This document shows positions 37,735 through 56,050 of a DNA stretch of 64,000 nucleotides, piece by piece (position 1 is the first letter of the stretch; every line of letters starts with the position of its first letter). A program made the position numbers and the translations under genes. Source of the stretch: Microscilla marina ATCC 23134 (GTDB lineage Bacteria; Bacteroidota; Bacteroidia; Cytophagales; Microscillaceae); NCBI RefSeq assembly GCF_000169175.1, contig NZ_AAWS01000017.1, positions 62,001 through 126,000 of the forward strand, written 5' to 3'. Under the pieces are notes generated by a model. That model searched no databases. It worked only from the letters and a program-made list of their open reading frames with translations, and was not told the origin of the DNA.

Positions 37735-37797
37735 CTATATAATACATAGGGAGAGGTTTACTCTTCCAGCACTAAATTTAAAAAACAAGCAAGCTTT

Positions 37798-38826
37798 ATG
37801 GCAGCAGAAGACAATAAACCGGTCATTGGAATCACCATGGGAGATTACAATGGTGTAGGTACCGAGGTAATACTAAAAGCCCTTGCTAATAAAAGAATTC
37901 TGAAAATATGTACGCCCGTGATTTATGGGTCAATGGCGGTAATATCTAAATATAGAAAAATACTTAAGCTGGACAGCTGGTATATAAATCAGGTAAATCG
38001 GGTCACCCAAATTAGTTTTAAAAAAACAAATTTGGTGCACTGTACCAAACAGAAAACCCCAGAAATAGTACCTGGAAAAGTGAGTCAACAAGCCGGTGAA
38101 TTTGCCTTAGAGTCGATCGAAGCGGCCACTAAAGATTTAAAGCAAGGGTTAATTGATGCAGTAATCACTGCCCCTATTAATAAACATACAATTCAAAGCC
38201 CTGATTTTGACTTTCCGGGGCACACCGAATACTTTACTACTCAGGCAAACATTACCGAAAGCCTCATGATGATGGTATCTCCTTCTATGAAGGTAGCGGT
38301 TTTTACCGGGCATGTGCCATTGGCAGAAATAAGTCAACACATCACCCGTGATAAGATGTTTTCGAAGGTGGCCTTACTGCAAGCTACATTACAAAAAGAC
38401 TTTAATATTCAAAAGCCAAAAATAGCTGTACTAGGGTTGAACCCACACGCAGGTGAAGAAGGAATGTTGGGTAATGAAGAACAACAAATTATTAAGCCAG
38501 CAGTGATAGAAATGAAAAAGAAAGGAAACCTCGTATTTGGACCTTATCCAGCAGATGGTTTTTTTGGTACTCATGACTACAAAAAGTTTGATGCAGTGTT
38601 GGCAATGTACCACGATCAAGGGTTGATACCGTTCAAAACTTTGGCCTTTGCAGATGGGGTAAATTATACTTGTGGGCTTCCTTTTGTAAGAACCTCTCCT
38701 GACCACGGCACAGCTTATAAAATAGCAGGCAAAAACCTGGCAGATGAGACGTCGTTTCGAGAGGCAATTTTTACTGCTTGTGATGTGGTGAAGAACCGAA
38801 AACTACAAATGACTGACCAGGCATAA
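37798..38826 (+). CDS. pdxA: 4-hydroxythreonine-4-phosphate dehydrogenase
   Basis: PdxA oxidises 4-phosphohydroxy-L-threonine in the DXP-dependent pathway to pyridoxal phosphate. The 342-residue protein begins KPVIGITMGDYNGVGTEV, and metal-ligand histidines are visible in FPGHTEYF, MYHDQGLIPFK and PDHGTAYKIAG. The closing GTAYKIAGKNLADETSF is typical. Length is normal. It may share a transcript with the preceding aminopeptidase. Its partner PdxJ is not in this window. Confidence 0.95.
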   Translation: MAAEDNKPVIGITMGDYNGVGTEVILKALANKRILKICTPVIYGSMAVISKYRKILKLDSWYINQVNRVTQISFKKTNLVHCTKQKTPEIVPGKVSQQAGEFALESIEAATKDLKQGLIDAVITAPINKHTIQSPDFDFPGHTEYFTTQANITESLMMMVSPSMKVAVFTGHVPLAEISQHITRDKMFSKVALLQATLQKDFNIQKPKIAVLGLNPHAGEEGMLGNEEQQIIKPAVIEMKKKGNLVFGPYPADGFFGTHDYKKFDAVLAMYHDQGLIPFKTLAFADGVNYTCGLPFVRTSPDHGTAYKIAGKNLADETSFREAIFTACDVVKNRKLQMTDQA

Positions 38827-38945
38827 GACGCAAGTGACTGTATATAATTGTGGTTGTTTGAGTAGAAAACAGTGGGGAGATGGCATATAGGTAGCTAAAA
38901 TATTTATATGAGCCCATATATTTTTTTTAATTAAAATTATCTGAC

Positions 38946-38953
38946 TAAATTTG
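38946..38953 (+). promoter_or_regulatory. Candidate -7 element of yceD-rpmF-fatty acid block
   Basis: TAAATTTG followed by CG lies 25 bases before the GTG start of the first gene. A -33 box is not obvious because the upstream DNA is a long A/T stretch. Confidence 0.5.
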
Positions 38954-38978
38954 CGCATTCATTTTCAAGGCATAAACT

Positions 38979-39539
38979 GTGAAAGAAATAGCAAACTATA
39001 ATATAGAGTTATTTAAGATGGCTCTGGGAAAGCATCGCTACGAGTTTAATTCACGTAGTGATTTTTTTACTGCTTTTCCCAACAGTTTGGTTCAAAAAGG
39101 TGAATTTAATGTACTATTAGACCTGGAAAAGTCTGAAACGTTGTTAAAGCTCGATTTTCAAATTCAGGGTAAACTTGAGTTAGAGTGTGATCGTAGTCTT
39201 GAATTGTTTGATTTTCCCTTTGAGGAAGAAAGAAGCCTCATTCTAAAATTTGGGGATCATAGTGAAGCATTGACAGATGAAATAGAAATCATCAATCGCG
39301 ACAAACAAACAATTAATATAGCCCAATATGTGTATGAATTCATTGGATTAGCTATTCCAATGAAAAAACTGCATCCAAAGTTTCAGCAAGAAGAGGGTTT
39401 AGAAGACATAGAAGACGACGAAGAAAACTCTACATTTGTGTATAGTTCTAAATCATCTGATAGTACCAAGCAAGCCCACGAAGAGGACGATGTAGACCCT
39501 CGTTGGCAAGCACTTAAAAATCTAAAAAATAAAGATTAA
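38979..39539 (+). CDS. YceD/DUF177 family protein
   Basis: The 186-residue acidic protein belongs to the DUF177 family, known to be encoded next to rpmF and implicated in 23S rRNA and ribosome biogenesis. The core LELECDRSLELFDFPFEEE and IINRDKQTINIAQYVYEFIGLAIPMKKLHP fit the family. The C-terminus closes with DPRWQALKNLKNK, also typical. It starts at GTG. It is the first gene of the block leading through L32 into fatty-acid synthesis. Confidence 0.9.
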   Translation: MKEIANYNIELFKMALGKHRYEFNSRSDFFTAFPNSLVQKGEFNVLLDLEKSETLLKLDFQIQGKLELECDRSLELFDFPFEEERSLILKFGDHSEALTDEIEIINRDKQTINIAQYVYEFIGLAIPMKKLHPKFQQEEGLEDIEDDEENSTFVYSSKSSDSTKQAHEEDDVDPRWQALKNLKNKD

Positions 39540-39581
39540 TTAGATTTAATTTTTTCAAAACATTAAAAAAATAGTAGTGTC

Positions 39582-39776
39582 ATGGCACATCCAAAACGAA
39601 AAATTTCGAAACAACGACGCAACAAACGTAGAACTCACTATAAAGCAACTGAGCGTACTATAGCTGTTTGCCAAAACACTGGCGAGGCTCATTTGTACCA
39701 CCGTGCCTACGTAGTTGACGGCAACCTTTACTATCGTGGTAAAATGATAGTTGAAGACTACGAACCTATCGCTTAA
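39582..39776 (+). CDS. rpmF: 50S ribosomal protein L32
   Basis: The 64-residue protein begins [20 protein letters not shown], the hallmark of bL32. The zinc-binding Cys pairs found in some L32 are absent: only one Cys is present (IAVCQNTG), so this is a zinc-independent type. It lies 42 bases after yceD and 77 before plsX, the same order as in many bacteria. Confidence 0.95.
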
Positions 39777-39853
39777 AATCCTTTTTTCTTTTCTTTTACA
39801 AAAAAGTTTACAATATTAAAATATAATATTATGTAAACTTATTACAGGTTTAA

Positions 39854-40828
39854 ATGCAAAAGCTGGATATGAGAGTTGCAGTAGATGCAATGGGTGGTGA
39901 TTTTGCCCCTGATGTTGTTATTAAAGGATCCTTATTGGCCTCAGAAGAGGTAAATAAGAACACTAAAATTGTTTTGATTGGGCAAGAAGAGGCAGTTCGT
40001 ACTGCCTTTTCCCAACAAAACCAACCCATCCCATCCAATATAGAAATTATAGATGCCCCCGATTTTATAGAAATGGGCGAAAATCCCATTAAAGCATTAC
40101 AAAAAAAGCCTAAGTCCAGCATTTCTGTTGGGTACAACCTCCTTAAAAATAAACAAGTAGATGCTTTTTGTAGCGCAGGAAATACTGGTGCTATGATGGT
40201 TGGAGCTATGTTTAGCGTTCAATTGATCCCTGGTATTATTCGTCCGGTCATTATGGCGTATGTACCCAAAGTAAGTGGTGAAAAAGGAATTATACTAGAT
40301 GTAGGTGCTAATACAGACTGCAAACCCGATATATTAGCTCAATTTGCGCAATTAGGCAGTTTGTTCTGCCAGCATGTATTAAAAATACCTGTTCCCAGAG
40401 TAGGACTTATAAACCTTGGAGAAGAAGAGGAAAAGGGAAATTTGGCCGTCAAAGAAGCTCACAAGTTATTGACAAATCATAAGCATATCGAGTTTGTGGG
40501 AAATATAGAAGGCAGAGGTATTTTTCTTGATAAAGCTGATGTGTTGGTATGTGATGGATTTGTAGGTAATGTGGTGGTGAAAATGGCGGAGTCAATGTTT
40601 GATATTATAAAAAAGCTGGGAATTAGTAATGAGTTTTTTGATGACTTTAACTCAGACGTTGTAGGAGCCAGCCCTATTTTAGGAGTAAATGGTAATGTGA
40701 TAGTTGCACATGGAGCATCAAACGATCTTGCGATTAAAAATATGATCCTGTTAGGACAGCAAATCACTGAAAGCAATATCACTGAAGAAATCAGAGAAAG
40801 TTTTATTGTTGAATCATCAGTGAAGTAA
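39854..40828 (+). CDS. plsX: Phosphate acyltransferase PlsX
   Basis: PlsX makes acyl-phosphate from acyl-ACP for the first step of phospholipid synthesis. The 324-residue protein has [20 protein letters not shown] at the start, the SAGNTGAMM loop, and the closing [12 protein letters not shown]. An internal ATG five codons downstream (MRVAVDAM) is an equally plausible start. It is a peripheral membrane enzyme. fabH follows after 44 bases. Confidence 0.95.
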
Positions 40829-40872
40829 AAATACCTGTTTTTACGAATACACCCTTAATCCAAAAAAATGCC

Positions 40873-41928
40873 ATGACAAAATTAAGAGCTGCTATTACCG
40901 GAGTGCAAGGATATGTTCCAGACTATATCTTGACCAATCAGGAACTGTCTAAGATGGTAGACACCAATGATGAATGGATTACTACTCGTACAGGAATAAA
41001 AACAAGAAGAATACTTAAAGGAGAGGGCTTGGGTACTTCCCACATGGGAGTCAAAGCAGTGCAGGGATTATTGGAAAAGACGAATACTAAACCAGAAGAA
41101 ATTGACCTGCTTATTTGCGCCACTACCACTCCTGACATGGTCTTTCCGGCTACAGCCAACCTTATAGCAGATGGAGTAGGAGCCACCAAAGCTTTTAATT
41201 ACGACGTACAAGCAGCTTGTTCAGGATTTTTATACTCACTGTTTACTGCAGCACAGTTTATAGAAACTGGCATGTATAAAAAAGTAGTAGTGGTGGGGGC
41301 CGATAAAATGTCATCTATTATTGATTATACTGATCGTACAACCTGCGTGATTTTTGGTGATGGAGCTGGTGCAGTCTTGTTAGAAGGCGATGATAGTGGG
41401 GTTGGAGTACAAGATGCAGTGCTGCAGTCTGATGGGTCGGGCTGGAAACACTTGCACCAAAAAGCTGGTGGGAGTCGTCATCCACCTACCAAAGAAACTG
41501 TAGAAAACCGTGAACATTTCGTATATCAGGAAGGCAAGCATGTGTTTAAACATGCCGTAACAAACATGGGATCTTCAGTTGTAGAGTTGATGAAACGTAA
41601 TCATCTGACTACTGCTGATGTAAACTGGTTAAATCCACACCAGGCAAACATGCGCATTGTAGATGCTACAGCAAAAAGCATGGGACTGGACGAGGGGGTG
41701 GAATCTGATAAAGTAATGATGACCATTAGCAAATACGGAAACACTACCAGTGGTACGCTTCCTTTAAATTTTTGGAACTATGAGCCTCAGCTTAAAAAAG
41801 GAGACAATATTATATTGGCTGCTTTTGGTGGAGGTTTTACCTGGGGAGCTGTATACCTTAAATGGGCGTATGATGGTCAGGAAATAGCAAAGCGGGAAGA
41901 ATATAAACACTTATTACCAGATTCTTAA
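40873..41928 (+). CDS. fabH: 3-oxoacyl-ACP synthase III (KAS III)
   Basis: FabH condenses acyl-CoA with malonyl-ACP to start fatty-acid synthesis. The 351-residue protein shows the Cys-His-Asn triad: Cys116 in [12 protein letters not shown], His in NPHQANMRI, and Asn in KYGNTTSGT. It also has the [12 protein letters not shown] motif near the start. It is placed between plsX and accB, the usual block. Substrate preference (acetyl- or branched acyl-CoA) cannot be read from the sequence. Confidence 0.96.
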
Positions 41929-41964
41929 GAAATATACACATTAAGTATAAAAAACAGAATACTT

Positions 41965-42471
41965 ATGAAAGCAAAAGAAATCAGAGATTTAATAGATTTT
42001 ATTTCCAAGTCGGGGCTTGCTGAAGTAAATATCGAGTCAGATGACTTCAAGATTAGCATTAAGCGAAACACTCCGGTAAATGTAACTGAGGCTCCAGCTA
42101 CTTTGGTAGCTGCTCCTACAGCAGTCACTACTCCAGCAGCTCAACAAGTAGTTGCACCAGAGAATAGTGTGGCGACTGCAACAGAAGCACCCACAAGCAA
42201 TGGGAACAACAATGCTGTGGATGAGTCAAAGTTGATCACTGTAAAGTCACCAATGATTGGCACTTTCTATAGGTCTTCAAGCCCCGAAACCCCTCCATTT
42301 GTCAATATTGGCGATACGGTAGAGACTGGAAAAACTGTTTGCATCATTGAAGCAATGAAACTGTTCAATGAGATTGAATCTGATGTATCAGGGACAATTG
42401 TCAAGGTGTTGGTTGACAATGCTACACCCGTAGAATACGACCAACCTCTGTTTTTGGTAGAGCCTAATTAA
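41965..42471 (+). CDS. accB: Biotin carboxyl carrier protein of acetyl-CoA carboxylase
   Basis: The 168-residue BCCP carries biotin for acetyl-CoA carboxylase. The N-terminal MKAKEIRDLIDFISKSGLAEVNIE part, a Pro/Ala/Thr-rich linker (about residues 50-95), and the C-terminal biotinyl domain with EAMKLFNEI (biotin on the Lys) are all visible. It precedes accC by 105 bases and acts with it in the cytoplasm. Confidence 0.96.
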   Translation: MKAKEIRDLIDFISKSGLAEVNIESDDFKISIKRNTPVNVTEAPATLVAAPTAVTTPAAQQVVAPENSVATATEAPTSNGNNNAVDESKLITVKSPMIGTFYRSSSPETPPFVNIGDTVETGKTVCIIEAMKLFNEIESDVSGTIVKVLVDNATPVEYDQPLFLVEPN

Positions 42472-42576
42472 AAGACTGTATTATTTTTTGTATTGCAGAC
42501 TAGTTTAAATACACTACCTCATACTATTTATTCTGAGGAAGTCACGATCATTCCATAAGCAAAGAAAACATATTCT

Positions 42577-43920
42577 ATGTTTAATAAGATATTAATTGCA
42601 AATAGAGGCGAAATTGCTCTTCGAATTATTCGTACTTGCAAGGAAATGGGCATTAAAACAGTAGCAGTGTACTCTACTGCTGACCAAAGTAGCCTGCATG
42701 TACGTTTTGCTGACGAGGCGGTATGCATTGGACCCCCTGCTAGTAAAGACTCTTACCTTAAAGTTCCTAACCTGATAGCTGCTGCCGAAATTACCAATGC
42801 AGACGCGATACACCCAGGTTACGGTTTTTTATCAGAGAATGCAGATTTTTCTCGTATTTGTGCTGAGCACGACATCAAATTTATTGGTGCTTCTCCTGAA
42901 ATGATTAACTCTATGGGAGACAAGGCTTCTGCCAAAGATACTATGAAAGCTGCCGGAGTCCCGGTTGTGCCAGGATCTGATGGCTTACTAGAGTCGGCAG
43001 AGCAAGGTAAAAAACTAGCCGTAGAAATTGGTTATCCTGTAATCATAAAAGCGACTGCCGGTGGCGGTGGTCGTGGAATGCGAATTATCAAATCAGATGA
43101 GGAGTTTGAGAATGCCTGGAACAGTGCTACTGCTGAGGCAGAGGCTGCTTTTGGTAATGCTGGCATGTACATGGAAAAATTTGTAGTGGAGCCACGCCAT
43201 GTCGAGATTCAAATTGCAGGAGATCAGTCAGGCAAAGCTTGTCACTTATCCGAAAGAGATTGCTCTATTCAGCGTCGTCATCAGAAGCTGGTAGAAGAAA
43301 CACCATCACCTATTATGACACCTGAGTTGCGTGAAGAAATGGGGATGGCAGCCGTTAGAGCTGCTGAAGCCATTGGTTATGAAGGAGTAGGTACTGTAGA
43401 GTTTTTGGTAGACAAATACAATAAGTTTTACTTTATGGAGATGAATACCCGTATTCAGGTAGAGCATCCCATTACAGAAGAAGTAACTGACTTTGATCTT
43501 ATCAAAGAGCAGATAAAAATTGCAGCTGGTATCGCCATTTCTGGGCAAAACTACACACCTAATCTTTATTCTATGGAGTGTCGTATCAACGCCGAGGATC
43601 CAGCTAAAGGTTTTAGACCCTCTCCAGGTAAAATTACTAACTTGCATATACCAGGTGGGCACGGAGTAAGAGTTGATAGTCATATTTATGCAGGCTATGA
43701 AATCCCTCCATTTTATGACTCTATGATTGCCAAGTTGATCGTAACGGCTCAAACGCGTGAAGAGACCTTGGTACGTATGAAAAGAGCCTTGCAGGAGTTT
43801 GTGATAGAAGGCATCAAAACCACCATCCCATTCCACATTAAGTTAATGGATGATGAAAACTTCAAAGCTGGTAACTTTACTACTGCATTTCTAGATGATT
43901 TTGACTTTTCGGATTTGTAG
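42577..43920 (+). CDS. accC: Biotin carboxylase subunit of acetyl-CoA carboxylase
   Basis: AccC carboxylates biotin on AccB using ATP and bicarbonate. The 447-residue protein has the N-terminal [23 protein letters not shown], the ATP-grasp Gly-rich loop [13 protein letters not shown], and the catalytic region [17 protein letters not shown]. Length is normal. Downstream a strong terminator closes the transcription unit. The carboxyltransferase genes accA/accD are not in the window. Confidence 0.97.
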
Positions 43921-43951
43921 CGACTTTTTCCTAAATGGTTAAAAAATAATG

Positions 43952-43984
43952 AAAACCCCTTGTGATGAGCAAGGGGTTTTTTTT
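43952..43984 (+). terminator. accC terminator
   Basis: Stem AACCCCTTG/CAAGGGGTT, a six-base loop, then eight Ts. Confidence 0.9.
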
Positions 43985-44055
43985 GTGAGTTTATCTTTTT
44001 GGGAAAAGATATTATTTATATATTGCTTTGTATCTAATCATTAACTTATATCCCC

Positions 44056-44820
44056 ATGAGTGATAATAATATAGCAAATGATCGCTACTCTAGAAATAAC
44101 CTATTTATCAATCCAGACCAACAAGAAAAAATTAAAAATGCAAAAATACTTTTTGGGGGGGTAGGGTTGGGAAGTGTCATAGCAGAAACAGCTTTGCGAC
44201 TAGGGTTTGAAAATTTTGTGTTTTTAGACGCTGACGAGGTGGAAATTAGTAACTTAAATCGGCAAAATTATACACTGGAAGATGTTGGTAAACCAAAAGT
44301 AGATGCTATAACCCAGCGTTTACAGGCTATCAATCCAGACGTTAAAATTGAGTACCATCAAGTGTTTTTGGATGAGGGTAACATGAATTCTTTTGTGGAT
44401 GAAAGTGTTTCTGTAGCTGTTAATGCATTGGATTATGATACTACAGCCCCTTTCACTTTTGATAATGCTTGTCTGGAGTATGGTGTTCCTATTATTCATC
44501 CTGGTAACTTAAGTTGGGGAGCTATGACTTTTGTCATAACTCATGATAGCATGAAGTTAGATGAGGTATTGAAGTCTTCTGAGGTAGATACTGTGTTAAG
44601 CTTTTTATGGTCACAAATTCAAGAGCAGCATTCTCATTTAAATTTGGACTGGTTTAAAGATATACCACAAAAGGTCAAAAGTAATCCACAGTTACCGTTA
44701 CCACAGATGTCGGTAGGAGCTAACTTAGTAGCAGGGCAAGCTGTTACGATTATGTGCAACATACTGGATAGTGTAGCTATCAAAACTTTTCCTAAAATAT
44801 ACTTTTTGAGTACTTTGTAG
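44056..44820 (+). CDS. E1/ThiF-like adenylyltransferase domain protein
   Basis: The 254-residue soluble protein has the ThiF/MoeB/E1 Rossmann core: the nucleotide loop GGVGLGS (residues 34-40), FLDADEVEISNLNRQ (57-71), and Lys81. In characterised members these bind ATP and adenylate the C-terminus of a ubiquitin-like or sulfur-carrier protein. The paired CxxC zinc motifs are absent and no catalytic Cys is obvious; the Cys residues seen lie in NACLEYG and IMCNIL. It stands about 465 bases before a cluster of SpoIIAA-like genes. Function beyond nucleotide binding is unknown. Confidence 0.78.
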   Translation: MSDNNIANDRYSRNNLFINPDQQEKIKNAKILFGGVGLGSVIAETALRLGFENFVFLDADEVEISNLNRQNYTLEDVGKPKVDAITQRLQAINPDVKIEYHQVFLDEGNMNSFVDESVSVAVNALDYDTTAPFTFDNACLEYGVPIIHPGNLSWGAMTFVITHDSMKLDEVLKSSEVDTVLSFLWSQIQEQHSHLNLDWFKDIPQKVKSNPQLPLPQMSVGANLVAGQAVTIMCNILDSVAIKTFPKIYFLSTL

Positions 44821-45285
44821 AACCTATAGAACATTAGTATAGTAATCTTACAATTTTTGTATTTGTACATTACTGTGTTTACCATTCAATATATCAATTG
44901 TTTATTCAAAATCTGGCATTTAATTTCATTGTGACTAATGCAATGGGATTAAGTGTGTATAACTAATGGTTGTGCAATCTCCTGTTGAAATCTTGTTACC
45001 GCACTTTATGAAAACTGTTTGTTGTATAAAAAACAGGAGGTGGAATTCAATTAAACTATCAAATTATATATACTCTTGATGGTGTAGCATCAGGCTAGTG
45101 TATTAATATCAGTAAACTTTAATGTGTTATTTTTCATAGATTTAATAAATCTTTTACTAAATTATGTTAAATCTTAGCCCTAAGTAATGATGATTATATT
45201 TTAATTTATAACAAAAGACTTAGGTGTATTTTTTGAGCAAAAGATTACCTTAAACGCATTCATTAATATAAAAATATAAACAAGT
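44821..45285. other. AT-rich spacer before SpoIIAA-like cluster
   Basis: No gene is supported. A TATTTTTTG sequence near 45228, one T longer than the consensus, is the only promoter-like signal before the 45.3 kb gene. Thus the E1-like gene and the cluster may be separate transcripts. Confidence 0.4.
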
Positions 45286-45711
45286 ATGCCTCGAATTAAA
45301 CTATCTCAAGACGATAATAAGTATTTTACTTCTTACTTTGACGAAGATTTGGGCATGTATGAGCTTTTCTGGAATAAAGAAAGTGAAGACATGGAAGATG
45401 AAGACTATAAGACATTAATGCTAAAAGATAAAGAACTATTGGTTGCTTACCCAGATGTAGACTTTTTTCTTTTAGACAATCGTAATTTCTTATTTAGCAT
45501 GTCACCTGATTTACAAGAGTGGTCAGCGAGAGAAATAACTTCTAAAATGTTTGAGAAAAACCCCAATATTAGAACTGCTATCTTGGTAAGTAGTGATTTT
45601 ATTGCTCAGTTGTCTATTGAGCAAGCTATAGAAGAAGATGAGCAAACAAATGAAACGACCAAGTATTTTGAGGATGAACAAGAAGCTAGAGAGTGGATTT
45701 TAGGTTTATAA
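45286..45711 (+). CDS. SpoIIAA-like small protein 1
   Basis: The 141-residue acidic protein has N-terminal strands (NKYFTSYFDEDLGMYELFW), a DYKTLMLKDK helix, a hydrophobic strand DFFLLDNRNF, then SMSPDLQEWSAREITS and a final YFEDEQEAREWILGL helix. It closely resembles the proteins at 47.4 and 47.9 kb, sharing MSPxLQEWS and the closing helix. A SpoIIAA/STAS-like fold is inferred from this layout. It may act as a regulatory or scaffold protein. It lies 65 bases before the acyltransferase-esterase fusion. Confidence 0.7.
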   Translation: MPRIKLSQDDNKYFTSYFDEDLGMYELFWNKESEDMEDEDYKTLMLKDKELLVAYPDVDFFLLDNRNFLFSMSPDLQEWSAREITSKMFEKNPNIRTAILVSSDFIAQLSIEQAIEEDEQTNETTKYFEDEQEAREWILGL

Positions 45712-45776
45712 TAATTATCCTGAGTAGCTAAGTGTTAGTACACGTATAGTTGCTTACTATTGCTAAAATCAATACC

Positions 45777-47423
45777 ATGGTAAAAAATACTATATATCAA
45801 AAACTAGCAAATAAGCTTAATGAAATATTAGGTGTTGATAAATTTACCCCTAAGAATACAAGCATTTTTGCAAAATTATTGGATGAGAGTCTAACTCAAA
45901 CTTACTTAGATGAATTAGAAAAAGTGGCTCATACTAAGGGAGAGAATACAACATTTTCTAAAAATACGGTTTTATATAACCCTTTTGAAGGTGAGAGTAA
46001 AATTACGCTTGGAGATAACTGTGATATCAGAGGAGAGTTGATTATCACTAACTATGGAGGTGATATTTCCATTGGAAATGATACTTACTTTGGTGCAGGC
46101 AGTCAGATCATTTCAGGGCATAAGGTTACTATAGGTACAAACGGATTTATTGGTTATTATGTGTTAATTGCTGATTCTAATCACCACGAAACAGACCCTT
46201 ATTACCGTGAACGTTCATTTACAAAGTCTATGGCTCGTGATAAAAACTCAATGACGAGTGCAGAAATTTTTTATCAGACTAAAGACAATAAAGCCACCCC
46301 TCATGATGTGATGACAAAAGTAGTAGTAGATGAGGTAAAAATAGGAAACCACGTATGGATTAACCCATTTGCTACAATACTTAAGGGAGTGACTATTGGT
46401 GATGGAGCCATTATAGCAGCCCATGCTGTAGTGACCAAAGATGTTCCAGCTTATAGTATGGTAGCTGGAAACCCCGCCAAGGTGGTACAGACTGGGGTTG
46501 GCTTTGACAGAGGTACATTAGAAAGCGATAGAAAAACAACAAATGAAAAGTTTTCAAAGGCTTACCCTGTTCCTGAAGGTGTTAGTATCGTAGAAGAAAG
46601 CATACAAGGTGTTATCTGTTATTGGTTTACACCAACAGAAATAAAAAACGAAAGATTAATTTTATATCTACATGGTGGAGCATATGTACAAGGTTCGCTC
46701 AAGTCACATCAAGGTTTAGTAGCTGATATTGCTATACTTACGGGCTCTGAAATATTATTTGTTGAATATAGTTTAGCCCCAGAACACCCCTACCCAACAG
46801 CAGTAAACGAGCTAATAAAAGTGTATAGTTGGCTTATAAGTGATGAAGCTAACAACAAAAAAGTAAATGCTGATAATGTCATTATGATGGGAGATTCTGC
46901 TGGAGGAGGCTTAGTACTTGCTACTCAAATAACGTTGCTAAACGAGAGTACCGAGCAGAAATTACCTGCTTTGAATATATTGTTAAGCCCTTGGGTAGAT
47001 TTAACTTTTTCTTCTGATTCTTGGAAACGGTTGATAGCTTCAGATAAGGTGTTGACGGAGAATGGGAAAGCTTTGAAAGAAGCAGCTGCTATGTATAGAG
47101 GAGTTTATGAAACTACTCATCCTGGTGTATCTCCTGTGTATGCAGACTTGACAGGGCTACCTCCTACCCTTATACAAATAGGTACACATGATAGTTTATT
47201 AGACGATAGTATAACATTGGCAGATAAAGCAGCGTCAGCTGGAGTAGAAGTTGCTCTAGAGGTATACCCTAACCAACCCCATGTTTGGCATTTAACTCAT
47301 AAAATATTATCTGAAGATGTTGATAAAGGTATTGATCAAAAGTATATTAACCAAGCAGCAAAAAAATCAAAAGAAGCACTTGATAATCTTGCCGCATTTA
47401 TAAAACACCAATATCATGAGTAA
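45777..47423 (+). CDS. Hexapeptide acyltransferase fused to HSL-type esterase
   Basis: The 548-residue protein joins two enzymes. Residues about 75-240 form a left-handed beta-helix O-acyltransferase with hexapeptide repeats ([45 protein letters not shown]), the catalytic His in SNHHETD (about 136) and the AGNPAKVV end. Residues about 290-545 form a hormone-sensitive-lipase-type alpha/beta hydrolase: LHGGAY oxyanion motif (299-303), GDSAGG (Ser374), Asp472 (THDSLLD) and His502 (NQPHVWH). Transfer and removal of an acyl group in one chain is possible, but substrates are unknown. ATG at 45777 was preferred to an upstream TTG. It overlaps the next gene by eight bases. Confidence 0.85.
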
Positions 47424-47865
47424 TCACATCATTTCTATAGGCCATAATAGTTATTATATCTCTTCTTTTGACAATAACTTAATGTTGTATGAGTTAATTT
47501 GGTTGCCAAATACTGCCAATATGAGTGAAGATGACTATAAGATAGCGATGCTGTCAGATCAAAATAAGTTGTTTAATAATTATGATGTAGTCAATTTTTT
47601 GTTATTAGACAACCGTGATTTTTTGATGACTATGTCACCTGAGTTGCAGGAGTGGTCAGCGAAAGAGATTACGTCTGAAGTAATGGAGGCAAACCCTCAA
47701 CTCAAAATAGCCTTGGTCGTAAGCCAAGATATATTTAGTCGAGTATCAGTGAGCCAAGCAGTAGAGGAGGATGAGACGATGGATAGAGTTACCCATTATT
47801 TTGAAAACAAGGAAGAAGCTTATGATTGGATTTTATCTCATCATAAAAAGCATAATTTTAGCTAG
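47416..47865 (+). CDS. SpoIIAA-like small protein 2
   Basis: The 149-residue protein follows the pattern of its paralogues: [42 protein letters not shown], then [29 protein letters not shown]. Its start overlaps the end of the acyltransferase-esterase gene by eight bases, so translation is probably coupled. It ends in a short basic tail (HHKKHNFS). A regulatory or partner role with the enzyme is inferred only from this context. Confidence 0.7.
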
Positions 47866-47896
47866 GAGCTAAGTTTACTTTCTAAAACAGAAAAAC

Positions 47897-48319
47897 ATGG
47901 CAAAAATCACCCTCTCAAATAATCAATATTTTGAGTCTTCATTTGATCAAGAGCTTAAACTGTATGAGTTGATATGGCATAAGGCAAGCGAAGCTATAGA
48001 AGATGATGAGTATAAAGCTTTGATGAATGCTGATCGTGACAAAGTATTGCAAGAATGTGATAAACTAAACTATATAGTAATCAATATCAAGGAACGCATG
48101 GATACCATGTCGCCAGAATTGCAGGAATGGTCTACTGCTGCTATTTCTTCGCAGATTTTTTCTAAGTATAATGTATTAAAAATTGCAGTGATTGCCAGCA
48201 AAGATTTTTATACTCAAGTATCTGTAGAGCAAGCCATTGAAGAGGATAATATAAACGAAGGAGTAGTACGTTATTTTGAAGATGAACAACAAGCCACCGA
48301 GTGGATTTTAGGTTTATAA
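47897..48319 (+). CDS. SpoIIAA-like small protein 3
   Basis: The 140-residue protein matches the two preceding members: [37 protein letters not shown] and VSVEQAIEEDNINEGVVRYF closing with EWILGL. It lies 31 bases after copy 2, in one operon. The strand that holds LLLDNR in the other two reads YIVINIKERMD here, so this copy has diverged at that site. The fold is inferred as STAS-like; the function is unknown. Confidence 0.7.
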   Translation: MAKITLSNNQYFESSFDQELKLYELIWHKASEAIEDDEYKALMNADRDKVLQECDKLNYIVINIKERMDTMSPELQEWSTAAISSQIFSKYNVLKIAVIASKDFYTQVSVEQAIEEDNINEGVVRYFEDEQQATEWILGL

Positions 48320-48515
48320 CTTATTATATTTTGTTAGCCAACCTTGCGCTAACTTCATTTCTATTGTATTCAGACAAAATAGTATTGTGTTGTACCCTTT
48401 CTCCCACAGCAGCTATGTATTTAGTGTAGCAATAGATGGATAAATTTGAAGCATTTTTGTTGATATTTGAATAATGGTTCATTAAACCAAAGATTCATTA
48501 TTAAAAACTGTTTCT

Positions 48516-49577
48516 ATGATCACATTTTACCCCGGACCCTCCAAGGTTTACCCACAAATAGGAAAATATACCCAACAAGCAGTTGAAAAGGGCATTTTGT
48601 CGCAAAACCATCGCAGCTCTGCTTTTGTCGAGCTTTCAAGTCAAACCATCAGTTTACTGAAGCAAAAGCTGACTATACCACCTGACTATTGGGTGTTTTA
48701 TACTTCGTCGGCTACTGAATGTTGGGAAATCATTGCCCAATCGTTGATACAAAAGCAAAGTTATCATGTATACAATGGAGCATTTGGTGAAAAATGGGCA
48801 AAGCGTACTCAAGAACTAGGAATCAACACCACTCAGTATGCTTTTGACCCTGCCACTTCATTAGACATTCTGCAATTGACCATCAACCCAGCCCACGAGC
48901 TCATTGCTATTACACACAACGAAACCTCCAATGCGACTGCTTTGTCTTCCACGTTTCTGCGTGATTTAAGGCAAAGTTTTCCAGCACAGCTCATTGCAGT
49001 AGATGCTACTTCATCATTAGGAGGAGTACAGTTAGACATTTCGCAGGCAGATGTCTGGTATGCTTCAGTGCAAAAGTGCCTGGGTTTGCCCGCCGGAATG
49101 GCAATTATGCTGTGTTCACCCAAAGCAATTGAACATGCTTTGGCAATCAATGAACGAAATCATTACAATAGTTTGGCTTTGATGATAGAAAAAATGCAAG
49201 ATTGGCAAACAACTTACACGCCCAATATCTTGAATATTTACTTGTTGAATCAGGTTTTGCAACAAGTTCCCAGCATAGAGAAAGTAGATAAAATGGTGAA
49301 GCAAAGAGCTCAGGCATACTATAGTTTTTTTGAAAAGATAGAAGGCTTACAGTTATTGAACGAAAATCCAGCAGTAAGATCAGCCACAGTAATTTCGCTA
49401 AAAGGTAGTTTAAATCGAATAGCCCATATTAAAGATTTGGCAAAGCAAAAAAATATTATTCTGGGCAATGGTTATGGTAAATGGAAAGATACTACCTTTA
49501 GAATAGCCAACTTTCCTGCAATTGAAGATTTTGAAATAGAACTATTGAAAGATTTTTTTAACACTATGATGAGTTGA
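48516..49577 (+). CDS. Class V aminotransferase (SerC-like)
   Basis: The 353-residue PLP enzyme begins MITFYPGPSKVYPQIG, the pattern of phosphoserine aminotransferase and its relatives. VYNGAFGEKWAKR and VDATSSLGGVQLDI follow, then the PLP Lys187 in SVQKCLGLPAG. SerC makes phosphoserine from 3-phosphohydroxypyruvate. Sequence divergence from classical SerC leaves another class V substrate possible. It is monocistronic as far as can be seen. Confidence 0.8.
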   Translation: MITFYPGPSKVYPQIGKYTQQAVEKGILSQNHRSSAFVELSSQTISLLKQKLTIPPDYWVFYTSSATECWEIIAQSLIQKQSYHVYNGAFGEKWAKRTQELGINTTQYAFDPATSLDILQLTINPAHELIAITHNETSNATALSSTFLRDLRQSFPAQLIAVDATSSLGGVQLDISQADVWYASVQKCLGLPAGMAIMLCSPKAIEHALAINERNHYNSLALMIEKMQDWQTTYTPNILNIYLLNQVLQQVPSIEKVDKMVKQRAQAYYSFFEKIEGLQLLNENPAVRSATVISLKGSLNRIAHIKDLAKQKNIILGNGYGKWKDTTFRIANFPAIEDFEIELLKDFFNTMMS

Positions 49578-49633
49578 TAAGTACTTTAAATATTCTTTTA
49601 TTACAACCCTGAGGTAAATATTTTAAAACATTA

Positions 49634-49747
49634 TACCTTTGCGCCATTCAAATACAGCCACCTAGTGTGCGTGTTGCTTAATTGTATTTAAGTAATAAGT
49701 GTACGGTGGTTTTTTTTATGGTGTCCTTAAATTGAAAGGAGGTAACA
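49634..49747 (+). promoter_or_regulatory. marC leader with promoter and hairpin-T run
   Basis: The leader starts with a TAnnTTTG element (TACCTTTG, 49634-49641). A hairpin follows: outer arms CCACC (49658-49662) and GGTGG (49705-49709), an inner GTGC/GTAC pair, and an inner stem TTGCTTA/TAAGTAA. Directly after GGTGG come eight Ts (49710-49717), then AGGAGG next to the start codon. This looks like a terminator or attenuator placed before the gene, so regulation by read-through is possible. Confidence 0.5.
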
Positions 49748-50317
49748 ATGTTAAGTTTAAAAGAAATTTTATCAGTATCTTTAGTGCTTTTTTCTGTAAT
49801 TGATATCTTAGGTTCAATACCTATTGTCATTGACCTTAGGCAAAAAGCCGGTGAAATTCAGTCGGTGAAAGCCACTCTGGTGGCAGGGGTAATTATGTTC
49901 GTGTTTTTGTTTCTGGGAGAATCTATCCTTAGACTTTTCGGAATAGATGTTGCCTCCTTTGCCATTGCAGGGTCGTTTATTTTGTTTGTGTTGGGGGTAG
50001 AAATGGTGCTTGGAGTACACTTGTTTAAGTCTGCCAATGATCCTAAAAGTACTTCTATAGTGCCGCTGGCTTTTCCTATCATTGCTGGGGCTGGAACAAT
50101 GACCACCATTGTGTCATTAAGAGCAGAATATGCTCAATTGAGCGTGGTAGTGGGTATATTTGTAAACCTGATATTTGTTTTGATAGTTCTAAAATCATTA
50201 GGATGGATTGAACGAAAGTTAGGGCAGGCAGGAGCCGATGTGTTAAGGCGCATATTTGGAGTGATTTTATTGGCAATAGCCGTTAAGTTGTTCAAAACCA
50301 ATGTTATGTTGCTTTAG
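49748..50317 (+). CDS. MarC family integral membrane protein
   Basis: The 189-residue protein has six hydrophobic helices and MarC-family features (SVIDILGSIPIVIDL, FAIAGSFILFVLGVEMVLG, PLAFPIIAGAGTMTTIVSL). MarC proteins sit in the inner membrane; earlier links to multiple antibiotic resistance were not confirmed, and transport function is unknown. It has a strong AGGAGG ribosome-binding site, unusual for this genome, placed after a hairpin with a T run. It is monocistronic. Confidence 0.88.
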   Translation: MLSLKEILSVSLVLFSVIDILGSIPIVIDLRQKAGEIQSVKATLVAGVIMFVFLFLGESILRLFGIDVASFAIAGSFILFVLGVEMVLGVHLFKSANDPKSTSIVPLAFPIIAGAGTMTTIVSLRAEYAQLSVVVGIFVNLIFVLIVLKSLGWIERKLGQAGADVLRRIFGVILLAIAVKLFKTNVMLL

Positions 50318-50385
50318 TGTGCTATAAAGTGAGAATAAATTTATATATTTGATAGTCAGCTGCTTATAAAGTAGCTGGCTATTTT

Positions 50386-50420
50386 TTTGAGAAAAAATAG
50401 AATGCAGGGGGATAGATTTG
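50386..50420 (+). promoter_or_regulatory. Candidate promoter of sigma factor gene
   Basis: TTTG (50386-50389) and TAGATTTG (50413-50420), 23 bases apart, resemble the -33/-7 pair. The position supports the ATG at 50463 over one at 50430, which would leave almost no leader. Confidence 0.5.
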
Positions 50421-50462
50421 CCCTGACAGATGTACATAAAAGCAAAGAGGGAGAAAAATAGA

Positions 50463-50999
50463 ATGCAACTTATTGATAAACTAAAACAGGGGGATCAAGA
50501 ATTATTACAAGCGATTTATCATCAGCATAAAAATCGTTTTGTAAATATTATGAAAGCCCGCTTTCCTGAATGTGATGTGTTGGTGGTAGAAGATGCTTAC
50601 TCAGAAGCTGTAGAAGTATTGTTTAACAATATTAACCAAGGAAAGCTCACCCACATAGAGCAATCAATCGAATCATATATTTTTGCAATTGCAAGAAATA
50701 AACTATACCGGGACTCTAAAAAAGCCCAACAAAATCTCAGACTAAGTGTTGACTTGGAAGATAAGTCAGAACAGGATGTTTGGGAAACAGAGCGGCACCT
50801 TATGTCTAAGTGCTTAGAGCAACTGGGCGAACGGTGTCAAAAATTATTAAAACTATTTTATTACAGCTATAAATCTCTTCAATCAATCACAACAGAAATG
50901 GGTTTTGGTGATACCCAAAATGCTTCAGCAGCAAAATATAAATGTTCGCAAAAATTGAAGAAAAGGATGCTAAATGAGATGAAAAACCAACGTCATTAA
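50463..50999 (+). CDS. ECF-type RNA polymerase sigma factor
   Basis: The 178-residue protein has a region 2-like part (YHQHKNRFVNIMKARFPECD, VVEDAYSEAVEVLFNNINQG) and a C-terminal helix-turn-helix like region 4 (LEQLGERCQKLLKLFYYSYK followed by AAKYKCSQKLKKRML). It should direct RNA polymerase to a set of promoters. A purine-rich GGGAG lies nine bases before the start. The next gene, eight bases to a GTG or 20 bases to the preferred ATG, encodes a membrane protein that could hold it inactive. Confidence 0.82.
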   Translation: MQLIDKLKQGDQELLQAIYHQHKNRFVNIMKARFPECDVLVVEDAYSEAVEVLFNNINQGKLTHIEQSIESYIFAIARNKLYRDSKKAQQNLRLSVDLEDKSEQDVWETERHLMSKCLEQLGERCQKLLKLFYYSYKSLQSITTEMGFGDTQNASAAKYKCSQKLKKRMLNEMKNQRH

Positions 51000-51019
51000 A
51001 AAGGAAAGTGACAAAATTT

Positions 51020-51928
51020 ATGGATGGTACAATGAGAGATAATGAATCAAAGTTTGAGCTAATAGAAAAATATTTTGATGGCAGACTAAGTGCTGCTGAG
51101 CGAAGTGTTTTTGACCAGCTAATGGCCACAGACCAGGAATTTATCAGTGATGTAGACGATTACAGAAAGTTAACCGCATTTACCGACTTTCTGGATGAAG
51201 AAATCTTATTGAAAGGTTTGGATCTGAGCCTTACAAATAAAAAAACTAACTCAAACAAACATCAACTAGTAGCTAATGCACCCCTTAACCAGAAAGATCA
51301 GCGCGCAACTGTTAAACCAATATTTTTTCCACGTAGAGTAAGCAACCGTTATGCCGCTGCTATAGCTTTACTTTTTGTAAGTTTGGTAGCCGTAAGTTTG
51401 ATGTTTTCAAACATTGATTGGAATCAAACCTCAAGCAGTAAAAACTCTAAGGTGCTTACTGTAGAGTATGAGCGCAAAGACAGCAAACCCACTAAGATAC
51501 CTGAAAAAACAGCAAAGACTGTGACAGAGAAAAAGCCAAAGGCAACACAAGAAATGGCTTTTTTGGCTACCAATTTTGAAGTAAACGATACATTTGAAAA
51601 GCTTATTTTAGAGCAATCAAGTGTTTTGAAAAATCGTAGTGAAAACCAGTCCAAATTAAAGTTTGAAATTATCCAACCACAAAAAACCCCATCAGTGGGC
51701 AACGAAATGCTCATTCAATGGAAATCGAATGATGCTTCAGTTGAAAACATCACTGTAAAAGTATACAACAATAAAAACCAGATTATGAAAACATATAATT
51801 TTCCGAACAAATCTGGTAAAACAACTTTGAATACCCAGTCTTTGAAACAAGGGCTTTACTATTGGCGAGTAATGAGTACGGAGACTGAAGAAGTTTTATT
51901 TATTGGTAAGTTTACCAAAAAACAGTAA
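51020..51928 (+). CDS. Probable membrane anti-sigma-like protein
   Basis: The 302-residue protein starts with a soluble domain (FELIEKYFDGRLSAAERSVFDQLM ... DEEFISDVDDYRKL type) like the N-terminal part of Bacteroidota anti-sigma factors, then a membrane segment near residues 110-130 (AAAIALLFVSLVAVSLMF), a Lys/Thr/Pro-rich linker, and an outer beta domain. The last 90 residues (LKFEIIQPQKTPSVGNEMLI ... YYWRVMSTETEEV) look like an Ig-like domain. It probably controls the adjacent sigma factor. ATG at 51020 was preferred to GTG at 51008, whose purine box would be too close. Confidence 0.72.
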   Translation: MDGTMRDNESKFELIEKYFDGRLSAAERSVFDQLMATDQEFISDVDDYRKLTAFTDFLDEEILLKGLDLSLTNKKTNSNKHQLVANAPLNQKDQRATVKPIFFPRRVSNRYAAAIALLFVSLVAVSLMFSNIDWNQTSSSKNSKVLTVEYERKDSKPTKIPEKTAKTVTEKKPKATQEMAFLATNFEVNDTFEKLILEQSSVLKNRSENQSKLKFEIIQPQKTPSVGNEMLIQWKSNDASVENITVKVYNNKNQIMKTYNFPNKSGKTTLNTQSLKQGLYYWRVMSTETEEVLFIGKFTKKQ

Positions 51929-51950
51929 TACTTCTTAAAAGATGATAACC

Positions 51951-52140
51951 AGTACCTTAAACATTAAGTAAATGCGCTATTAGCTGAAGCAGAGCTCGGC
52001 ACAGTAGAACTGTAGCCTCGGTTATTTAGGATGAGTTTTGTTTTCTGACGCACTTTAAAAATCGTGCAGAGTTAGTTTACAATTCCGATGCATATCGGAA
52101 CCGGAGCTACGCAAACTTTTTGAAGTAAAGTCAGCGAGCT
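51951..52140. repeat. Modular intergenic repeat, copy B
   Basis: Left module 51951-51982, 42-base block 51983-52024, middle module 52025-52068, and a right part with TTCCGAT-GCAT-ATCGGAA (52083-52100) and GAAGTAAAGTCAGCGAGC. The block (GCTGAAGCAGAGCTCGGC ... CTCGGTTA) is present in copy A (31974-32015) only as its reverse complement at the other end. Confidence 0.85.
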
Positions 52141-52256
52141 AAAGACTCCAAATAATGTGGTAGGAATTTAGTTTCCAGTGCACTAGCCTCAAAAGGCAAT
52201 AAAAACATAAAGAGCAAATTAGCTTAAAAATAATAATTCCCTCAATATTTTTTGGT

Positions 52257-52288
52257 AAAAAGCACCTTGCAATGCAGGTGCTTTTTCT
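52257..52288. terminator. Bidirectional terminator
   Basis: Stem AAAGCACCT/AGGTGCTTT with an eight-base loop, As on the left and Ts on the right, set between convergent genes. Confidence 0.85.
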
Positions 52289-52302
52289 TTTCGATATGAT
52301 TA

Positions 52303-53049
52303 CTACTCTATGCCCATAATTCGCTTGATAGTAAATTTATCATTGGTTTTAATAGCGGTTTGTAGAGCCGCTCTTTGACTAAAAGGAATGTCTTTGAAGT
52401 TACTAATAGGTTTACCGCTGGCGTCTAACTTACGCACAGCCACCTTATAGCGGGCGTTTTTTATCCAGCCAAACGGCAAAATCATTTGACTGCCTCCCCC
52501 GGCTAAAAACTGAGGAGGAGATTTGGTGCTCAACTGTGGTCCAGCTAAACCTACACTAATGATGGTTCCTTTCGGTATTTGTATTTTTGCCTCCCAGGTA
52601 ACAGTATTGCCCCAGGCAGTAATTAAAGCACTTTCTTTGATAGTTTTTTCTTTACTTTTGATAGGCTTCAGTGTGACGAAAGATCCCCCCAGCGTAGCGA
52701 CTCCACCAAATACCCGATAAAATGTAGTAAAACTAGCATTGGTACTGCCCGTAGCATATTGTTGATAATAAAACGTGTTTGCGGGTACTGGGTAAATATT
52801 GGCTTGAGTAATCAGTTTTTTTACTTCTGCTTTTACCTGATCTTTGGACATAGGCTTCCAGCCTTTTTTCATGGCAGTCACTATAGGAGCTTTGTAAGCT
52901 TCAGAAGGTACCTGATCGTATCCAGAAACAATATTGGCAATGGAATTTTGAGTGGTTGTAGGAGTTTTAACTGTTTTGCAACTCCAGAAGCTTGTCACTA
53001 GTAAGGTCAGGAGTAAAGAACTAACCGAGTGTTTAGAGATAGTTTGCAT
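52303..53049 (-). CDS. Lipoprotein, unknown function
   Basis: The 248-residue protein has a type II signal peptide (SLLLTLLVTSFWSC, lipidated Cys24) and a Thr-rich linker after it. The mature part contains QYATGSTNASFTTFYRVFGG, GSFVTLKPI and KDIPFSQRAALQTAIKTNDK, which I do not recognise. It has no visible catalytic motif. It is probably attached to the outer membrane. It stands alone, with a terminator at its end. Confidence 0.75.
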   Translation of the reverse strand: MQTISKHSVSSLLLTLLVTSFWSCKTVKTPTTTQNSIANIVSGYDQVPSEAYKAPIVTAMKKGWKPMSKDQVKAEVKKLITQANIYPVPANTFYYQQYATGSTNASFTTFYRVFGGVATLGGSFVTLKPIKSKEKTIKESALITAWGNTVTWEAKIQIPKGTIISVGLAGPQLSTKSPPQFLAGGGSQMILPFGWIKNARYKVAVRKLDASGKPISNFKDIPFSQRAALQTAIKTNDKFTIKRIMGIE

Positions 53050-53117
53050 AATCTAATGTCGATAATTTGTGAATGCATAAATATGTTCGTTAAATCCTTG
53101 GAATAAAAGCTTTTACA

Positions 53118-53156
53118 TAAAAAAAACTCTCTTTTAGAAAATCCAAAAGAGAGTTT
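53118..53156 (-). terminator. Terminator of epimerase gene
   Basis: AAACTCTCTTTT/AAAAGAGAGTTT form a twelve-base perfect stem around a nine-base loop; on the minus strand Ts follow. Confidence 0.82.
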
Positions 53157-53180
53157 AACAATCATCAATCTTACAATAGT

Positions 53181-54143
53181 TTAGCTATTTACTATTTCCT
53201 GAGTAGTTTGAGGACTTCGTTGACCATGTATAATTTCTTCGAAGGCTTCTTTCAAATAAGGATACTTGAGGGTAAAACCTAATGCTTGCAAACGCCCTGG
53301 CACTACTTGGCGGCTTTTTACAATCAGTTCGGTTTCGGTACCAATAAACCAAGCACCTATTTCGAGCATCCATTGCGTGGCAGGCAAACCAAAAGAAACG
53401 TTCATGACCTGCCTCAAAGTTTTCATAAACTTTTGATTGGGCTCAGGGTGGGGGCTCGAGACATTCAATACTCCTGTCACTTCTTTGTGTGCCATTAACC
53501 ACTCTATTATCCGTACAAAATCGTATTCGTGTATCCAGCTAATGAATTGATTGCCTTTGCCTTGAGTACCACCCAGACCGCGTTTTACTAAATTCATAAA
53601 AGGGGGAATTACTCCGCCTTCACGCCCAAGTACCATGGCAATCCTTAACATCAATTTACGAGTATGAGGTGTTTTCATTTTGTCAAAAGTAGCTTCCCAT
53701 TTTTGACATACATCTACCGAAAAACCACTGCCAAATTCCCCAGTAGCTTCATCCATAGGGCGGTCTAGTGCATGGCGGTAAATAGTAGCCGATCCGGCAT
53801 TGATCCAAAGTGCAGGTGGGTGCTCACATTGGGCTATAGCTACCCCTATCACCTCGGTAGAGAACAAGCGTGAGTCGTAAATTTGTTGCTTGTTTTTCTT
53901 ATTATAACGACAATTGACTGTTCTTCCTGCCATATTGATGACAGCATCTGCTCCCTCAAAAGTAGTTGCCCAACTGTCTAAATTTTTGCCATCCCATTGT
54001 ACATATTGTACACCGTCTTTTTGCGTACTTTTTTTTCTGGTTAATATAATCACCTCATCGCCTTGTGCCACAAAATGCCTGGCCATTACCTGACCTATAA
54101 ATCCAGTACCACCTGGTATTACTATTTTTCTTTGCTTGTTCAT
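53181..54143 (-). CDS. TIGR01777 family NAD-dependent epimerase
   Basis: The 320-residue protein is an extended SDR of the TIGR01777 (YfcH) type. It has the Rossmann loop PGGTGFIG (residues 10-17), INMAGRTV, the SGSATIYRHALDRPMDE-like segment here read as NAGSATIYRHALDRPM, and a C-terminal DUF1731-type end (LQALGFTLKYPYLKEAFEEII). These are cytoplasmic epimerases or reductases of unknown substrate; YfcH itself is uncharacterised. Single gene on the minus strand. Confidence 0.9.
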   Translation of the reverse strand: MNKQRKIVIPGGTGFIGQVMARHFVAQGDEVIILTRKKSTQKDGVQYVQWDGKNLDSWATTFEGADAVINMAGRTVNCRYNKKNKQQIYDSRLFSTEVIGVAIAQCEHPPALWINAGSATIYRHALDRPMDEATGEFGSGFSVDVCQKWEATFDKMKTPHTRKLMLRIAMVLGREGGVIPPFMNLVKRGLGGTQGKGNQFISWIHEYDFVRIIEWLMAHKEVTGVLNVSSPHPEPNQKFMKTLRQVMNVSFGLPATQWMLEIGAWFIGTETELIVKSRQVVPGRLQALGFTLKYPYLKEAFEEIIHGQRSPQTTQEIVNS

Positions 54144-54353
54144 GTTCTTATTAGGGTAGTGGGTACTTGCTTACAACGTTCTGTTTTTAATAGAAGTTTC
54201 AGAATTTTCTGAAAGTTTGATTTTATTATTGCTTTTTATGTCTCCGAAAAATCAGAAAACCTAAATTTTGCATTCTCCTACTTGTTTTCTACCTTCAATT
54301 TTCTTGCGGAGCGTTTGCTCCAGTGCGGAACTATTACAAAATACACAATCATT

Positions 54354-56026: not shown

Positions 56027-56050
56027 TTAACACCAATCAAGCCTAAAAAA

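Follow-up and report, generated by a model that had tools for sequence, protein, structure and literature searches.

We analysed a 64,000-nucleotide stretch of the Microscilla marina ATCC 23134 genome (9.77 Mb; contig NZ_AAWS01000017.1, positions 62,001 to 126,000), hereafter called the window, in which the gene of an E1-like/ThiF protein stands beside genes for small SpoIIAA/STAS-type proteins and an acyltransferase-esterase fusion. All five cassette genes are on the + strand, between a gene ending at 43920, which we take from its sequence to be accC, and an aminotransferase class-V gene (48516). The E1-like protein, an AclA family member of 254 amino acids (44056–44820; Pfam ThiF, 2.5e-33), is followed by an intergenic gap of 465 nucleotides (44821–45285). 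Downstream lie small protein 1 (SP1; 45286–45711, 141 amino acids), the fusion (45777–47423, 548 amino acids), SP2 (47416–47865, 149 amino acids) and SP3 (47897–48319, 140 amino acids). The open reading frame (ORF) of the fusion opens at a TTG at 45750, and the ATG at 45777 agrees with the start in a sister species. The end of the fusion gene and the start of SP2 share eight nucleotides (47416–47423). An ORF and Pfam check confirmed the gene set, order, coordinates, overlap and gap given by the original prediction, which was made from the sequence alone, and also the paralogy of the three small proteins, SP2 and SP3 being 47% and 46% identical to SP1.

The same chromosomal site is present in a second Microscilla genome, that of the sister species (G001:C55; locus L107), where the order is E1, SP1, fusion and SP3, as in the window. 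Alignment of window positions 37701–57000 to the sister locus (L063) with blastn gave DNA identities of 94.7% over 37702–43983 and 92.9% over 47891–51940, and of 92.9–95.1% for the right flank overall. Between 43984 and 47890 the DNA similarity breaks off. This segment contains the E1-like gene, SP1, the fusion and SP2, the last of which is found in the window only and has no counterpart at the sister's site. Inside the segment, the protein identities were 53% for E1, 73% for SP1 and 41% for the fusion, and the third-codon-position identities were 44%, 52% and 37%, respectively, against 79–95% for the flanking genes compared. The latter include SP3, which stands just outside the segment and shows 94% identity between the two species. 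On the left, the border falls just past a hairpin that follows accC (43952–43980, a terminator-like site reported on the − strand), and the right border lies six bases 5' of SP3. The 45 nucleotides around the hairpin (43939–43983) are 97.8% identical in the two species; terminator-like sites were about as frequent as in shuffled sequences (3 versus 2.3). The G+C content of the block is 34.2%, and that of the flanks 39.2% and 36.1%. Since such synonymous-site divergence is not produced by fast protein evolution alone, we infer that the segment with E1, SP1 and the fusion was probably replaced as a whole by a strongly divergent version between close species.

The shared order at the shared site indicates that the gene set is more than a chance arrangement, and the comparison points to a real local link of the E1 with SP1 and the fusion. 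The reading offered by the original prediction survives in part: E1, SP1 and the fusion were replaced together between flanks of 93–95% identity and form a unit, but the idea that the E1 activates the small proteins was not supported, as discussed below. The prediction had also regarded the gap after the E1-like gene as weakening the link. In the sister species this gap is only 67 nucleotides long, so that the 465-nucleotide gap is no strong argument against a connection between the E1 and the cassette. The gap showed no similarity marking a gene remnant, either with the sister locus or with the rest of the window.

The window E1 matched the structure 9EGB (9egb_A) over residues 6–251 of its 254 (E 4.8e-57). 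This entry is titled 'AclA from Tenacibaculum discolor in complex with substrate'; Protein Data Bank entries 9EGC and 9EGD belong to the same family, and no paper was found for 9EGB–9EGD. N-acyl-cyclolysine (ACL) signals were reported in Bacteroidota by Linares-Otoya et al. (Nature 2025, 646:423), according to the available excerpt of a 2026 review (PMC13419125). Judging from its name, phylum and species, AclA would be the ThiF enzyme of the ACL pathway. The adenylation residues G35, G37, G39, D58, N66, R69, K81 and D126 are intact in the window E1, as is R13, and 93% or more of 75 family members (counted without L107 and L182) agree on each of them. We assume the roles of these residues, and that of R13 as an Arg finger, by analogy with MoeB/ThiF. 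Outside the ATP site, the window E1 keeps the family residues H148, P149, N151, W154, P216 and Q217. Judged from its sequence, it is a divergent AclA-type ThiF enzyme and not, in appearance, a ubiquitin-type E1, sharing with AclA the full-length homology, a similar length, the adenylation residues and the type of acyltransferase found in its genome.

Three other roles were considered for the E1 and rejected. Only two genes of the ThiF family are present in the genome, one on the window's contig (C17) and one on C47. For thiamine or molybdopterin synthesis, the NCBIfam ThiF/MoeB equivalogs matched the window E1 far under their cut-offs, and the C47 gene scored 261.7 bits with Pfam ThiF, compared with 115.5 bits for the window E1. 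For E1-E2 defence systems as defined in PADLOC, the window E1 matched only part of the far longer E1-E2 profiles, and the five cassette proteins contained no E2- or protease-type domain above the cut-off. A cyclodehydratase-scaffold protein and an NHLP gene are described for M. marina ATCC 23134 in the available excerpt of PMC2887384. The window E1 lacks the scaffold part of a cyclodehydratase for ribosomally synthesised and post-translationally modified peptides, consisting of 254 amino acids with ThiF only.

The gene neighbourhoods of the E1 family were surveyed at the best 80 of 155 relatives in a scan of named genomes, all of them Bacteroidota by title except L152, and the partner counts given here describe 77 of these loci, since L112, L167 and L180 had no E1 gene call. 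The counts are lower bounds, as several loci end at contig ends, and the neighbour families are single-linkage BLAST clusters named from one to three members analysed with hmmscan. A FeeM/LuxI-like acyltransferase gene was found within three genes of the E1 at no fewer than 52 of the 77 loci and a LuxR-type gene at no fewer than 62; at least 47 loci had both, and neither was seen at ten. Pfam matches of the acyltransferases were weak (FeeM, 0.013 in L108; exosortase-acyltransferase, 0.0027 in L114) or absent (L111), and the LuxR gene with a helix-turn-helix domain matched GerE in L114 (1.5e-17). The acyltransferase lies immediately upstream of the E1 in Aquimarina (L108 and L110), in Tenacibaculum (L111) and in the genome G053. 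The original prediction had considered that the E1 might have a different conserved partner, such as a sulfur carrier. A different partner does exist, the FeeM/LuxI-like acyltransferase, which in M. marina is encoded elsewhere in the genome, and it is not a sulfur carrier, although no genome-wide search for a ThiS-like carrier was made.

Several other features of the related loci deserve mention. A radical-SAM-like gene near the E1 was recognised by eye at eight or more loci (L114, L126, L130 and others), and so were short leader-peptide-like genes (eight or more loci, among them L118, L124, L132 and L141), as if E1 modules adjoin clusters for peptide natural products. The single exception by title, L152, is filed under Candidatus Zambryskibacteria; its E1, acyltransferase and LuxR-type genes group with those of Kordia and other Flavobacteriaceae, and it is probably a misbinned contig.

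In M. marina, two FeeM/LuxI-like acyltransferases are encoded on other contigs, C19 (9.4e-58) and C54 (1.4e-54), and the sister species has one (C131; 6.3e-55). No E1 lies beside them: ThiF matches were at C17 and C47 in M. marina and at C55 and C252 in the sister species, and the ORFs around C19 and C54 were inspected. Across the order, an acyltransferase match at E<=1e-8 occurred in 4 of 390 genomes, which are exactly the four whose E1 matches reach E 1.2e-59 or better. The chance of such a perfect match is 1e-9 when counted by genome and 1.2e-4 when counted by genus (2 of 129). It should be noted that the line for a strong E1 was set after the match list had been viewed, with 12 of 390 genomes at E<=1e-18, and that at most six E1 and seven acyltransferase candidates per genome were scored among the matches listed. 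Within the taxonomic family, the acyltransferase occurred in 2 of 15 genomes, both of the genus Microscilla. In the E1 tree, the window E1 and the second repeat of the sister's E1 group with those of Aquimarina and Tenacibaculum (L108–L111; 99/99), and in the acyltransferase tree the Microscilla copies fall together with their L108, L110 and L111 counterparts (99/89). The two sequence-based trees agree.

The partner survey bears on the alternative that an AclA-type E1 works only with unlinked acyltransferases here, the fusion and small proteins being an unrelated adjacent cassette. The closest E1 relatives, L108, L110 and L111, have the acyltransferase and no LuxR gene, and L109 has neither, a pattern that speaks for this alternative together with the 465-nucleotide gap after the window E1 and the fact that neighbour families of the small proteins recur in at most four of 17 regions (among the matches listed). 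However, the gap shrinks to 67 nucleotides in the sister species, and the sharp segment borders take in E1, SP1 and the fusion together, three gene types that both versions contain. We regard this alternative as unlikely, though serious enough to be kept in view.

Another alternative is that the E1 serves an acyl-oxazolone biosynthesis of the Tyz/Trz/Oxz kind. The available excerpts of PMC10404671 and PMC12856293 describe an ATP-dependent cyclisation of N-acyl amino acids by ThiF homologues in the Tyz and Trz pathways, so that the chemistry, a ThiF homologue with an N-acyltransferase, would be the same, and the excerpt of PMC12479983 describes similar gene sets in producers of N-acyl tyrosine. 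The cyclases TyzB, TrzS and OxzB likewise are ThiF enzymes acting with an N-acyl amino acid synthase. However, acyl-oxazolone clusters carry a flavin-dependent desaturase beside or fused to the cyclase, according to the excerpt of PMC12856293. Neither the five cassette proteins nor the sister's versions of E1, SP1 and the fusion contain such a domain, none was seen by eye in the flanking ORFs, and no search for one was made elsewhere in the genome. The sequence of the window E1 moreover points to AclA as its closest relative, in an alignment that did not include TyzB and TrzS themselves. This biosynthesis is thus an improbable role for the E1.

The fusion joins a left-handed beta-helix (hexapeptide) acyltransferase to a hormone-sensitive-lipase-type esterase. 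Its N-terminus has the hexapeptide repeats (PF00132, 3.5e-15) and the conserved His of such acyltransferases, H137, which is invariant in the two species. Its C-terminus (Abhydrolase_3, 2.3e-52) has the HGG, GDSAG and His of hormone-sensitive-lipase-type esterases, the nearest solved structures being 3v9a (E 2.4e-64) and 3fak (E 2.8e-64). H137, HGG at 299–301, S374 in GDSAGG and H502 are conserved in both Microscilla versions, whereas D472, probably the acid, is replaced by Glu in the sister species. In these families HGG forms the oxyanion motif and the Ser of GDSAG is the nucleophile; the roles of H137, S374, H502 and D472 are assigned here by analogy. Among 37 relatives, the full-length fusion was found only in the M. 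marina and sister genomes, and no other full-length match was found at E<=1e-50 in 395 genomes of the phylum, with the sister not among the matches listed.

The small proteins are predicted to adopt a SpoIIAA/STAS fold, on the strength of VIA-align 2 comparisons of a SP3 model and weak Pfam matches; for SP1, the fold is assumed from that of SP3. The SP3 model, built from six sequences, had a mean predicted local distance difference test (pLDDT) score of 76.1 and a predicted template modelling (pTM) score of 0.74. Among its best structural neighbours in VIA-align 2 were 2ook (Z 11.0; 2.9 A over 117 residues), SpoIIAA (Z 10.2) and SiaC (Z 10.2), whereas Foldseek on its own yielded no hit at E<=0.001. 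With PF11964 (SpoIIAA-like), SP1, SP2 and SP3 scored 18.9, 17.5 and 21.0 bits, under the cut-off of 25, and the sister's SP1 scored 25.5. The family is large, with 53 matches in M. marina and 51 in the sister species (E<=0.001), and its members often stand in tandem, for instance four at G000:C49:40721–42998, a striking lineage expansion. A survey of 36 paralogue ORFs from 17 regions, among the matches listed, found no neighbour family in more than four of the regions. The second long helix starts with Ser in 20 and Asp in 11 of these ORFs (31 of 36 together), near where SpoIIAA has its phosphoserine. The predicted fold and this Ser or Asp are features in common with the SpoIIAA-like proteins of PF11964 (2OOK and 2Q3L) and the SiaC/STAS switches; a difference is that the window proteins fall under the Pfam cut-off. 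Partner-switch regulation of the STAS-fold proteins by SpoIIE-type phosphatases is possible, because the window also encodes two SpoIIE-type phosphatase proteins (10572–12617 and 28128–30413; PF07228, 9.5e-12 and 1.4e-14). A distant SpoIIAA-like paralogue, 19% identical to SP3, lies at 4825–5232.

According to the original prediction, one of the small proteins might be activated by the E1 in the manner of a ubiquitin-like or carrier protein and receive acyl groups from the fusion. The intact adenylation residues of the E1 are compatible with this, and so is the joint exchange of SP1 and the fusion with the E1. The small proteins, however, do not look like substrates of an E1. The SP3 model is best matched by SpoIIAA/STAS structures among the families present in the structure list. 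SP1, SP2 and SP3 end in LGL, NFS and LGL, without a di-glycine tail, and the WILGL end of SP3 lies mostly inside its last helix (130–138 of 140). The Trp of WILGL is found in 35 of 36 paralogue ORFs, yet this family of 53 matches is set against just two ThiF-family genes in the genome. Moreover, the usual neighbour at the E1 loci surveyed is the N-acyltransferase, and a small-protein homologue was found only at the sister's. We consider activation of the small proteins very improbable.

We favour an explanation in which the locus encodes an AclA-type enzyme, a tailoring fusion and STAS-fold switch proteins, and hold it, taken as a whole, to be reasonably probable. The window E1 would use ATP to adenylate not a protein but a small N-acylated amino acid, at its carboxylate, and the activated acid would cyclise or be captured, yielding a lipid signal of the lactam type or a related compound. 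Its N-acyl amino acid substrate would come from the FeeM/LuxI-like acyltransferases, whose genes lie on other contigs. The fusion would add acyl groups to the product of the E1 or to the precursor of that product, or take them off, with the small STAS-fold proteins serving as regulatory adaptors of the E1 and the fusion. E1, SP1 and the fusion, with SP2, would be exchanged between strains as one cassette, such that the product or its control differs between close species. This explanation builds on the family and intact adenylation residues of the E1, the co-occurrence and tree congruence with the acyltransferase, the block exchange and the predicted fold of SP3, all obtained by computation. 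The substrate, the product and the roles of the fusion and small proteins we infer.

Several observations weigh against this explanation. The acyltransferase genes are unlinked from the E1 on C17, their only matches in the genome at E<=1e-8 being on C19 and C54, and no full-length match to LuxR profile A8 (three rows; E<=1e-5) was found in the M. marina or sister genome, where only the C-terminal helix-turn-helix part matched, from query position 162 on. The genes therefore do not form a complete signalling module. The profile had no match either in G053 and G080, where acyltransferase and E1 adjoin, and modules lacking this LuxR therefore exist elsewhere too. Eight further genomes of the order carry a weaker E1 (8e-36 to 9e-19) without an acyltransferase at E<=1e-8, and the bootstrap of the E1 tree is not settled. 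In addition, the window E1 deviates at ten near-invariant positions (17, 22, 45, 59, 96, 127, 150, 153, 218 and 222), defined as those where 93% or more of 71 family members from other branches have one and the same residue. At five of them (F127Y, Y150G, G153S, L218M and S222A) the sister's E1 has undergone the identical change, and of these only position 150 is also altered in the Aquimarina and Tenacibaculum sequences (to Leu); the substrate may therefore differ from that of AclA. The gene types, whose co-occurrence the original prediction had proposed to look for, stand together in the sister (L107), but homologues of the fusion and small proteins (blastp, E<=1e-3) were found at no other locus in the neighbourhood survey. 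The cassette is thus carried by two genomes only, and the case for a common function rests on a single replacement event. We do not file the system as an ACL signalling system, because two features fail, the adjacent acyltransferase and the LuxR gene, yet the E1 itself likely works like AclA. Besides these differences and the changed residues, the Microscilla E1 departs from the ACL pathway in standing beside an acyltransferase-esterase fusion and STAS-type proteins and in being tandem in the sister species.

The sister's E1 (L107 6726–8729) has 667 amino acids and two ThiF repeats, preceded by a part of about 150 residues. The first repeat retains the RYSRN segment and has lost G37, R69 and D126, and the second has G37, R69 and D126 and no RYSRN segment, suggesting that the protein consists of one degenerate and one active-looking half. 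The origin of the first repeat could not be placed in the tree (end branch 7). The structure model had a mean pLDDT of 66; residues 1–150 are unreliable, and blocks of ten in repeat 2 scored 78–95, its ends excepted. The model matched 9EGB (Z 31.8, 239 residues) and, spanning both repeats, yeast Uba1 (5L6H; Z 28.0, 391 residues) and a bacterial E1-E2-Ubl complex (8TZ0; Z 27.0, 358 residues). The sister E1 thus shares with these tandem E1s a two-repeat architecture in which one half is degenerate. In contrast to the systems of those enzymes, no ubiquitin-like protein or E2 was seen at the Microscilla locus, ThiF was the only Pfam domain above the cut-off in the sister E1, and the partner of the window E1's family is a small-molecule acyltransferase. 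Tandem E1s are already known; that of the sister species sits within a family of small-molecule enzymes.

A promoter pattern, TTTG-N-TANNTTTG, occurred at nine sites versus 5.4 expected, with none inside the 465-nucleotide gap, and a scan for sigma-70-like promoters was at chance level (16 versus 20.7). IS110-type transposase domains (PF02371 and PF01548), on separate ORFs, lie on the − strand at 6120–7213.

No paper on this locus was found, judged from titles and abstract starts. What is new here is an AclA-type enzyme unlinked from its acyltransferase, without the usual LuxR, that shares an exchangeable cassette with an acyltransferase-esterase fusion and STAS-type proteins. The findings tie an orphan E1-like gene and its odd gene set to a signalling chemistry recently reported in Bacteroidota, and they do so for a lineage whose acyltransferase and cyclase genes have separated but still co-occur. 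A bolder and rather doubtful extension is that the cassette sets the 'dialect' of a lipid signal. The core acyltransferase would be fixed elsewhere in the genome, and the cyclase, the tailoring fusion and the STAS control or reader proteins would be swapped at a fixed site, such that close Microscilla species make or answer different versions; one allele's cyclase would now be a half-dead, half-active E1, a small-molecule parallel to the eukaryotic ubiquitin E1. The tandem allele may serve as a test case for the origin of such half-dead, half-active E1s outside ubiquitin chemistry, and the two divergent cassettes within near-identical flanks provide a natural experiment on whether the fusion and the STAS-type proteins act on the product.

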